A program made the position numbers and the translations under genes. The notes beneath the pieces were generated by a model, which made no database searches, was not told the DNA's origin, and saw only the letters and a program-made list of their open reading frames with translations. A stretch of 64,000 bases of DNA, from assembly GCA_001657325.1 (NCBI GenBank), contig LWRO01000001.1, forward strand, positions 62,001 through 126,000, read 5' to 3'. This document shows, one piece after another, positions 45,449 through 48,960 of this stretch. Origin of the DNA: Geitlerinema sp. BBD 1991-9. GTDB lineage: Bacteria; Cyanobacteriota; Cyanobacteriia; Cyanobacteriales; Geitlerinemataceae. How positions within the stretch are numbered: position 1 is the stretch's first letter; every line of letters starts with the position of its first letter.

Positions 45449-46036
45449 TTATCCTATCACCTCGTTCGGAACGGGTTGGGCAATGCTGTGGGCTTGTTCT
45501 AACAAGGTTTCAATCGAGGCGTTGGGTTCGAGAAACGAAAAGAGGTGTTTGTAGCAAAGTTTCCCATTTCGATCGAGTACGAACTGAGCGGGTAACGGTG
45601 CGCCCAGTGCCTGTCCGACACGATACGCGCGAAATACCTGACCGTCCGGATCGCTCAATAAAGGTAATTTCAAGTCCAAATCCCGAACGACGATTTTGCT
45701 TTGTCGCGTGTCGGTACTCGTCACCATTAGCACTTCAACCCCGAGGTCGGTAAACTGCTGGTAGCGCTCGTTTAACTCGACAATGTGGGGAAAGCATAGG
45801 GGACAGTATTGTTTTTCGGTAAAAATGCGCGTAAAGGCAACAATAACGGGCTGCTTCCCCCGATAGTCTCGCAGGTGAACTCGTCGGTTATGGGTCAGAT
45901 CGGGTAACTCGAAATCCGGCGTAGCGACTTCGTAGTACGATTGGTTGGTCGCGGGGATGGGGAAGAAGTTTTTGAAGAATCGAGGACTGAGTAAGCCGCG
46001 AAAGTCGGTCGATGTGAGTGGTATCGATTTCAGCAT
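45449..46036 (-). CDS. Peroxiredoxin-like (AhpC/TSA redoxin fold) protein
   Basis: A 195-residue thioredoxin-fold protein. The peroxidatic-type cysteines are in EKQYCPLCFPH (CPLC), and HLRDYRGKQPVIVAFTRIF is the usual preceding strand. The C-terminal part has VGQALGAPLPAQFVLDRNGKLCYKH. The CxxC spacing differs from the single peroxidatic Cys of typical 2-Cys enzymes, so a different redox partner is possible. I use ATG 46036, since the upstream ATGs give odd extensions. It lies after the peroxiredoxin gene on the same strand. Confidence 0.8.
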   Translation of the reverse strand: MLKSIPLTSTDFRGLLSPRFFKNFFPIPATNQSYYEVATPDFELPDLTHNRRVHLRDYRGKQPVIVAFTRIFTEKQYCPLCFPHIVELNERYQQFTDLGVEVLMVTSTDTRQSKIVVRDLDLKLPLLSDPDGQVFRAYRVGQALGAPLPAQFVLDRNGKLCYKHLFSFLEPNASIETLLEQAHSIAQPVPNEVIG

Positions 46037-46192
46037 GGTGAGTTCCGCTCGATACGAGTTGAAAAGGGGGTTCGATCGGGCAAACGTCCTCATGTCGCAA
46101 CCCCAACGCGATCGAGCATAACTCATCGCATTGGGGTCTCGAAAAAATGGGAACGATCCCACTGATTATCGTAAAAGTTTCCTCAAATCGCC

Positions 46193-46792
46193 CTAGATTG
46201 CCGCGAAGTACTCTTTCGAGGCGACGGGGTCGGGTTTCATGGTTCGTTCGCCCGGTTGCCAGCCCGCAGGGCAAACCTCGTCGGGGTGTTCTTGGACGTA
46301 TTGAATGGCTTGCAGCGTCCGCAGCGTTTCGTCAACGTTCCGACCGAAGGCCAGGTTGTTGATGGTAGAGTGCTGGACGACGCCGTCTTTGTCGATGATA
46401 AACAATCCGCGCAGCGCCACGCCCGCATCGGGGTCGAGCACGTTGTAGGCGGTGCTGATTTCTTTTTTGAAGTCAGAGACTAGAGGATAGTTCAGATCGC
46501 CAAGACCACCGGATTTACGGTCGGTTTGAATCCAAGCGAGGTGAGAAAATTCGCTATCGCAGGAAACGCCGAGGATTTCGGTGTTGAGTTGGCTGAACGC
46601 TTCGTATCGATCGCTGAACGCCGTAATTTCCGTCGGACACACGAAGGTGAAGTCCAGAGGATAGAAGAACAGAACGACGTATTTACCGCGATAGTCAGAC
46701 AGTTTAATGGTTTTGAATTCTAAATCGACAACAGCCGTCGCGCTGAAGTCGGGGGCGGGTTGACCGACCCGCAGGCATCCTTCTTGAGTCAT
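46193..46792 (-). CDS. Typical 2-Cys peroxiredoxin
   Basis: Reduces H2O2 and alkyl hydroperoxides using thioredoxin, cytosolic, 199 residues. The peroxidatic Cys52 is in FVCPTE and the resolving Cys174 in EVCPAGW. Both GGLG (in KSGGLGDL) and a C-terminal YF (KEYFAAI) are present, which in eukaryotic enzymes makes overoxidation more likely. It precedes the peroxiredoxin-like gene, 156 bases apart, perhaps as a stress pair. Confidence 0.95.
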
Positions 46793-46981: not shown

Positions 46982-47055
46982 TGGCTCGGGGCGGACTTGA
47001 ACCGCCGACCTTGGGCTTATGAGTCCCCTGCTCTAACCAACTGAGCTACCAAGCC
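46982..47055 (-). tRNA. tRNA-Met (CAU anticodon)
   Basis: A 74-nt cloverleaf on the minus strand. The acceptor stem GGCTTGG pairs with CCGAGCC (one G-T). The D arm is GCTC with GAGC, the T arm GGCGG TTCAAGT CCGCC, and the anticodon loop CTCATAA gives CAU. The anticodon stem has two non-pairing positions (31-39 and 27-43), which is unusual. Discriminator is A and no CCA is encoded. Elongator Met is the likely identity. A tRNA-Ile2 (lysidine type) cannot be excluded. Confidence 0.85.
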
Positions 47056-47174
47056 TTGCTTTTTTGCTGCCGTATCCCACTATAACAGATTTTTGAGTTT
47101 TGGAAAGGGAATTTCAAGAATGTGAAGTTATTTTAACTTATGCTTGCTATTAGGGAAAACTATGCTAACTTGTA

Positions 47175-47690
47175 AACACTGAACACTGTAGAGCGAAACA
47201 CAACAAGCGCTCGAATCGGAAAAGGACAATAGCTCAGTGTTCGACCCGCTAGTTGTCCAGCCGCTAAGCTTCTCCCTGTACCGCCGTAATGAGTGGTATG
47301 CCCTTGCAAAAAGGGTTAATCCATACCTGAAGTCCGGAAAGACCAGACGATGCAGGAAACCGTGGAAGTCGAAGGTGGTTATCTGTAAACCTATCTAGCC
47401 ATCGCGTTAGCGTTTCAACTCATCGCTAGACCCAAAGCTATCCAATCTTTCATGCCCGTTACGGGTGGCACTAGAAGCAAACCTAATCTCAACAGAGGGT
47501 CTGGTGCTTACAGGTTACTCCCTACCTGCTGTCTACCTCGCTGATTTATGTAGTTCAGTCCGATTGTCCCGTATGTCAAGCGTTCAGGACGGGGTAGTCA
47601 AGGGAGAACGTCAAGGTCAAATTTGTTGAAAACTCTATCATTCATCACTTGTACGAGCCTGGCTTCCGAAGCTAGGCTCGTTGCATTGCG
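47175..47690 (+). ncRNA. Candidate long structured RNA of unknown type
   Basis: The plus strand can form GGACAA-TAGC with GCTA-G-TTGTCC (47225-47263), CCCTT with AAGGG (47304-47317), and GTACCGC with GTGGTAT just upstream. Longer-range CTAGACCC with GGGTCTGG also pairs. A terminal 13-bp hairpin lies at 47653-47681. The stretch lacks the motifs that define RNase P RNA, tmRNA, 6S or group II introns. An omega-RNA or HEARO-like element, or a decayed insertion-sequence end, are alternatives. Limits and strand are inferred. Confidence 0.35.
47653..47681. terminator. 13-bp hairpin closing the candidate RNA
   Basis: ACGAGCCTGGCTT pairs with AAGCTAGGCTCGT (one G-T), loop CCG. No T run follows. It may be a terminator or part of the RNA itself. 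Confidence 0.5.
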
Positions 47691-47826
47691 CTAACACATT
47701 TTGTGTGAATGCATTGAACGCATTGTGTTGACGGTTGCCGATAATTTGTCTTTGTCTTTGTAGAGGTACAAACTCACGTCACAATGGTGGAAGCAGCAAC
47801 GATAACCGCAGAAGGAATCACGCTCG

Positions 47827-48960
47827 ATGGGGAAAGCGGAAGCATTAGCGCGTCAGTGGCGTTTGCGCCTGGAGCGAGACTACCCCGACCCAACCTCCAA
47901 AACCCACGCCGGGATTCTGTGTTGGCTGTTCGGCGAAACGCTCGATCGATGGGACGATCTCGACGAAGATCGTAGCCAAATTGCCGAGCAGTCGATGGAA
48001 TTTCGCTACAGCATCCTACGGGCGCGATACCTCGGGGTTGCACCTGAAGCCGCATATCGCCATCTCGTGCGACGGTTGGGGAGCCTCGTATTACTGCGGA
48101 ACAAAATCCGCACTTGGGTCGCGTTGAGCCGAGATCGCCGTCGAACTGTCGTCGATGTGGTGCAGGAAGTCATCCAAGAGATGCTCGATAGCGATCGATA
48201 TCTACAGCGGGAAATGGAGCGAATTGCCGAGTGTACGACGGACGCTCGTCTGAGAAACGCCCTAGTTCTGTCCAGTCTCGAAGAGTACTGCTTGCGTCCC
48301 ATTCGCAACCAACCGCTTCTCGTCTATCGTTTTGTGAATTACCTCCGCCGAGCGCAGCGGGGAGGCTTAACCCAAGTCCCGACTCAAGAATTGGTACGTC
48401 TGGTTTCCGCTGAAGTCGCTCCCTCTGACCGTGAAGACACCGTCAACCTCATCGACACACAAACCCTTGCCCAATCCCAAAGCGATCGAGAGTGGGAAGA
48501 CCAACAGACATTGCGCGGGCAGGTTGCACGTGAATTTACAGATTACCTCGAACAAAACGTCAGTTCGATGGCCGCTCAGTGGTTGACCCTCTATCTACAG
48601 GGGTACTCCCAGGACGAGATCGCCAAACGCCTCAACGTTCCCGTCCCAGAGCTGTACCGCTTGCGAGAAAAAATCGGCTACCACGCTATCCGGGTTTTTG
48701 CCCTCAAACAATCTCCAGACTTGGTGGCGAGTTGGTTGAAAATTTCGCTCCAGGAGCATAGTTTGGGATTGACGCCCCATCAGTGGCAACAGTATCTCGA
48801 GCGACTGACCCCTCAGCAGCGTCAAATGCTCGATCGCCTCAAAGCCGGACAAAGCATCGAGACCATCGCGCAGGAACTCAACCTGAAAACAAATCAAGTG
48901 ATGGGGGAATGGAGCAAACTTTATCTGACTGCCCAGCAGCTCCGTAATTCCACGGACTAG
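47827..48960 (+). CDS. HetZ-related protein
   Basis: A 377-residue cyanobacterial protein of the HetZ-related group. Typical stretches are ILCWLFGETLDRWDDL (about 30-45), MEFRYSILRARYLGV, LVLLRNKIRTWVALSRDRRRTVVDV (in parts) and the C-terminal half with repeated helix-turn-helix-like segments (YSQDEIAKRLNVPVPELYRLREKIG and QSIETIAQELNLKTNQVM, each cited in part). HetZ itself acts in heterocyst commitment, but this related subgroup is common in strains without heterocysts. AAGGA upstream of ATG 47827 is a good ribosome site. The C-terminal pattern suggests a sigma-like DNA-binding fold. Confidence 0.78.
   Translation: MGKAEALARQWRLRLERDYPDPTSKTHAGILCWLFGETLDRWDDLDEDRSQIAEQSMEFRYSILRARYLGVAPEAAYRHLVRRLGSLVLLRNKIRTWVALSRDRRRTVVDVVQEVIQEMLDSDRYLQREMERIAECTTDARLRNALVLSSLEEYCLRPIRNQPLLVYRFVNYLRRAQRGGLTQVPTQELVRLVSAEVAPSDREDTVNLIDTQTLAQSQSDREWEDQQTLRGQVAREFTDYLEQNVSSMAAQWLTLYLQGYSQDEIAKRLNVPVPELYRLREKIGYHAIRVFALKQSPDLVASWLKISLQEHSLGLTPHQWQQYLERLTPQQRQMLDRLKAGQSIETIAQELNLKTNQVMGEWSKLYLTAQQLRNSTD

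Follow-up and report, generated by a model that had tools for sequence, protein, structure and literature searches.

The gene-free stretch between a tRNA-Met gene and a HetZ-related gene of Geitlerinema sp. BBD 1991-9 almost certainly encodes a member of a real family of structured RNAs. That a long structured RNA lies here had been the main proposal of an earlier reading of the sequence alone, and homology, covariation and conserved synteny now support it. As to the nature of this RNA, we see about an even chance that it is the product of a stand-alone non-coding RNA gene, from a seemingly undescribed family seen mostly in a single cyanobacterial order, with its own promoter and a ribonucleoprotein role in trans. 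All positions refer to the window, by which we mean the whole stretch of 64,000 nucleotides that was analysed (Table 1).

The gene-free stretch and its homologs

Between the tRNA-Met and HetZ-like genes there are only short, overlapping open reading frames and no credible protein frame, as the sequence-only reading had said of these ~770 bases. A second redoxin-like open reading frame (45449-46162, minus strand) lies, like the peroxiredoxin gene, beyond tRNA-Met. The folding energy of the stretch is only modestly better than that of shuffled sequences (z = -1.9), which is weak evidence by itself, and the case therefore rests on comparison. The ends that we predict for the RNA agree with the earlier estimate of ~47,175-47,690, both being predictions.

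BLASTn in relatives, which had been suggested as a check, found homologs, and covariance models extended the set across families. The sequence is present once in its own genome. Against a genome from another genus of the same family (G002), blastn gives 72% identity over query 2-363, and the alignment of the stretch has ~74% identity with many gaps, the majority of which are not multiples of three. Further relatives gave partial matches. Searches against plasmids by blastn gave no match, and exact-pattern searches reached close relatives and nothing farther. R1, the first covariance model, covered the core and brought in homologs from further families of the order; four weak R1 matches without the features of the family (L044, L045, L046 and L048) were dropped by eye from later steps.

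A second model, R2, was built from ten sequences, all from families other than the window's. Of the order's 389 sampled genomes, R2 matched 130 at E <= 0.01, and these belong to 56 of 149 genera, so that about one third match at the thresholds used, and the others may lack the RNA or be missed. A single match was found in 117 of the 130. R2 also recovered the window RNA at 47258-47398, with E values of 0.007 in its own genome and 3e-4 over 256 kb. Because R2 was built solely from other families, this match confirms the window RNA independently. R3, the third model, combines all 73 matches and gave E 2e-11 in the window, a better score that is not independent, since the window's own sequence is included. 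R3 was also run at E <= 0.001 on a phylum-wide sample of 386 genomes, made up of about 105 from the same order, 81 from the rest of the class and 200 from outside it (assuming that the genome table counted covers the same sample). Matches were found in 33 genomes: 32 belong to the order, and one, whose sequence looks genuine, belongs to another order of the same class. As a specificity control, none of the ~200 genomes outside the class matched.

Table 1. Features of the RNA locus, in window coordinates
Feature	Position	Strand	Remarks
Peroxiredoxin gene	46193-46792	-	beyond tRNA-Met as seen from the RNA locus
tRNA-Met	46982-47055	-	upstream flank of the stretch
Degenerate upstream repeat copy TGTGAAGTTATTTTAA	47121-47136	+	by position relative to homologs; HLR1-like in homologs
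Probable -10 box TATGCT	47161-47166	+	recurs in homologs
Predicted non-coding RNA, ~515 nt	47173-47690	+	located from promoter, conserved fold and 3' hairpin; both ends predicted
H1 5' strand TGAACACTG	47180-47188	+	pairs with 47235-47243 (CAGTGTTCG); pseudoknot stem
H2 hairpin GAGCG/CGCTC	47191-47212	+	within the H1 loop; by eye in several homologs
H3 5' strand GGACAATAGC	47224-47233	+	pairs with 47248-47258 (GCTAGTTGTCC); closes H-type pseudoknot with H1
Conserved core domain, helices H8, H4, H5, H6, H7	47258-47398	+	R2, R3, covariation
H8 5' strand AGCCGC	47259-47264	+	pairs with 47375-47380 (GTGGTT); window register assigned by hand
H4 5' strand CCTGTACCG	47275-47283	+	pairs with 47348-47356 (CGATGCAGG), one mismatch; assigned by hand in the window's family
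H5 TGG/CCA, U-U alongside	47294-47323	+	encloses H6 and conserved TTAA; covariation
H6 hairpin, variable	47301-47305 / 47311-47315	+	inside H5
H7 hairpin GTC[CGGAAA]GAC	47332-47343	+	most conserved motif; ~95% of cells paired
Unpaired conserved box TGTAAACC	47384-47391	+	columns 90-100% conserved
3' hairpin, probable terminator, no clear U-tract	47653-47681	+	score 32 vs shuffle maximum 25
HetZ-like gene	47827-48960	+	NCBIfam HetZ_rel_2, 591 bits

A covarying core domain

The outer helices of the core are H8 and H4; inside them lie H5, with its variable hairpin H6, and H7. The window RNA carries H8, H4, H5 and H7 together with the conserved motifs, and thus belongs to the family. H5 illustrates the covariation well, as it occurs in the forms TGGT/ACCA, AGGT/ACCT, AGGC/GCCT and TGGC/GCCA. 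The model-fitted alignment has 67 distinct rows; 93.4% of its cells are paired, a share that falls to 41% or less with slid partners, and 16 of the 18 pairs show a change of both partners in at least one place. A MAFFT alignment made from sequence only (37 members) gave 91.4% paired cells and 10 of 18 pairs double-changed, with slid partners at no more than 38%; it is the less biased of the two, yet the structure was derived from the same sequences. In both cases the slid-partner controls leave relatedness in, and with related homologs the counts overstate independence.

An H-type pseudoknot upstream of the core

Stems H1 and H3 form an H-type pseudoknot at a fixed place upstream of the core in 50 of 54 long homologs. 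Their sequences differ strongly between families, while complementarity is kept. The pseudoknot score exceeded that of all 20 shuffles in 38 homologs, the window included (37, against a shuffle maximum of 32), though this score was written after the pattern had been seen by eye and so serves as a check rather than a blind test. The search found no pseudoknot in four of the long homologs, namely L019 and three close relatives from family f20; in the latter three, inspection by eye shows a shorter stem despite the failed search.

Promoter, upstream repeat and 3' end

The sequence-only reading had also pointed to a possible -10 box and a closing hairpin, and both are borne out by the homologs. 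Of 58 homologs, 43 have a TGnTARnT-type -10 box ahead of the RNA (8.5% in shuffles), and 46 have, further upstream, a repeat, TGTAAnnTTTnGTAAA with 10-bp spacing (12% in shuffles), the consensus motifs having been defined after the sequences had been inspected. In 51 of 58 homologs the 3' hairpin outscored 10 shuffles, although the hairpin with the top score is probably not the terminal hairpin at a few loci. The 3' hairpin mostly lies within ~100 nt past the core and is found farther away in the window, where extra sequence intervenes. All three elements keep a near-constant distance across homologs. A plain sigma-70 and terminator scan of the window flagged neither the predicted promoter nor the predicted terminator, consistent with a poor -35 region and the missing U-tract.

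Read in reverse orientation, the upstream repeat resembles the HLR1 site of RpaB, a redox-responsive regulator. HLR1 consists of two direct repeats with 10-bp spacing (PMC9241938). The window's own copy matches no better than chance. RpaB control is thus a suggestion to be read with care, because the consensus was picked post hoc, the relatives are not independent and the window copy is degenerate.

Genomic neighbours, copies and variants

At 20 loci in eight families, alaS lies divergently upstream of the RNA (for example, L064 2-1288, minus strand); three of these genes were identified by NCBIfam at 540-605 bits (cut-off 457) and the others by their likeness to these three. The divergent arrangement in eight families argues that the RNA gene is old. 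In close relatives of the window, the RNA instead follows a divergent tRNA-Met gene. Downstream, four genera of the window's family, the window's own included, have HetZ_rel_2 on the same strand; in other families the downstream genes vary and may be convergent. Taken together, this synteny fits a gene that is old and independent; it argues against a leader in cis and against a mobile element, and the variable neighbours favour action in trans.

In genus g6 the known RNA NsiR1 (RF02399, 53.7 bits) follows directly after the RNA on the same strand (L018 796-855, minus strand), and the remaining g6 loci inspected have a sequence similar to NsiR1 in this place. A gene for a small protein resembling heavy-metal-binding proteins, whose NCBIfam match is weak and below the cut-off, lies downstream at L072 (1913-2149, plus strand) and at five more loci.

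Two or three matches occur in 13 of the 130 genomes, several of them in tandem (for example, L043, L037 and L039). Each RNA copy in the multi-copy genomes has its own promoter-like sequence. A short form, which starts near the core and lacks the pseudoknot, occurs in some genomes of families f33 and f8 (L080, L081, L082 and L090), and in one genome, G047, it is present alongside the long form. In another genome (G496, L035 ~1360-1430), what looks by eye like the 3' end of a group II intron appears to abut or interrupt the 5' part of the RNA.

What the RNA may do

By analogy, the RNA may act in trans as part of a ribonucleoprotein, a role to which we assign even odds. It is the role that we consider most likely, based upon the large conserved fold, a copy number that is usually one and the varying neighbours. 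In such a scheme, the RNA would be transcribed from its own promoter, perhaps under RpaB-type light/redox control through the HLR1-like repeat (degenerate in the window), and the transcript would end at the 3' hairpin. The pseudoknot and helices could form a rigid scaffold, on which the conserved unpaired bases (AAACC, the YGGAAA loop and UGUAAACCYUAG) may make protein or tertiary contacts, and the RNA would then work in trans as the RNA component of the particle. The fuller picture, of an unrecognised large pseudoknotted family that is mostly single-copy, old and long linked to alaS, with a ribonucleoprotein or ribozyme core and perhaps light/redox control, we hold somewhat more tentatively, at a little under even odds.

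The main rival to a ribonucleoprotein role is that of a base-pairing regulator. Here the RNA would be a regulatory sRNA acting in trans, with UGUAAACCYUAG or AAACC pairing to mRNAs and the rest serving as a stabilising scaffold. Its own promoter, the 3' hairpin, the varying neighbours and the conservation of unpaired bases would all fit, but a large, pseudoknotted and conserved fold exceeds what a base-pairing sRNA needs, and we regard this explanation as possible and on the unlikely side. A regulator could also act in cis, as a leader or riboswitch of the HetZ-related gene, which indeed lies downstream on the same strand in four genera. However, this constant arrangement holds only within the window's family, NsiR1 comes after the RNA in genus g6, and a hairpin closes the RNA ahead of HetZ_rel_2, making a leader improbable.

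A catalytic RNA of its own type, for example with a group I-like pseudoknot, would explain the pseudoknot and multi-helix core; yet no Rfam 15 ribozyme family matches, and the RNA is flanked by a -10 box and a 3' hairpin rather than by splice sites, so that we rate this reading as marginally less probable still than a leader. Size, single copy and pseudoknots also recall a diverged housekeeping RNA. The genome, however, has its own RNase P RNA (C105:24010-24457, 245 bits) and its own tmRNA (C3:61079-61469, 114 bits; none in the window), as expected from the earlier exclusion of both. The 6S and SRP RNA models find no match in this stretch, which no Rfam family reaches, and a housekeeping RNA is very improbable. 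Finally, the sequence-only reading had offered an omega-RNA/HEARO element or a decayed insertion-sequence end, and its suggestion is the only point in favour of either. Neither holds up: HEARO has no match in the stretch at E <= 5, and the single genomic copy, the conserved position in relatives, the covarying structure and the synteny are against both, leaving this the least credible of the explanations considered.

Conservation depth, the pseudoknot and the old alaS linkage argue that the RNA has a role that cells keep. A structured RNA that lies outside Rfam 15 and occurs in one third of the genomes sampled from a large cyanobacterial order would be a notable addition. What appears to be new is the RNA family; a stand-alone non-coding RNA is a known kind of molecule, and its function may prove familiar. 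The gene is present in culturable strains, for example Baaleninema simplex PCC 7105, and is thus directly testable.

Comparison with known RNAs

As had been proposed, the RNA was compared with all Rfam models by Infernal, and no family matched it. In the window and 16 related loci, the 4227 families of Rfam 15 at gathering threshold matched only neighbouring tRNA genes and, at one locus, NsiR1, and permissive thresholds added sub-threshold chance matches; at E <= 5, this stretch gave the tRNA and chance matches and nothing else. Searches of the accessible literature found no account of the RNA, though a homolog may stand as a start site in supplementary tables.

HEARO/omega-RNAs are likewise structured non-coding RNAs of a few hundred nucleotides, from which the window RNA differs in being single-copy and in giving no HEARO match at E <= 5. 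At this locus HetZ_rel_2 is its neighbour, and no nuclease gene of the IscB/TnpB type was found beside it. RNase P RNA and tmRNA share its single copy and pseudoknots but are present elsewhere in the same genome. NsiR1 is also a cyanobacterial non-coding RNA, and constitutes a separate family of 60 positions with no similarity to the window RNA. Yfr1 is another widely conserved cyanobacterial non-coding RNA gene, of 54-57 nt in the marine lineage (PMC4734099); the window RNA is several times larger and pseudoknotted. Like OLE, GOLLD and ROOL (PMC12286853), it would be a large non-coding RNA with an intricate fold, and from these structured bacterial RNAs it is set apart by having neither sequence nor structure match to any Rfam 15 family.
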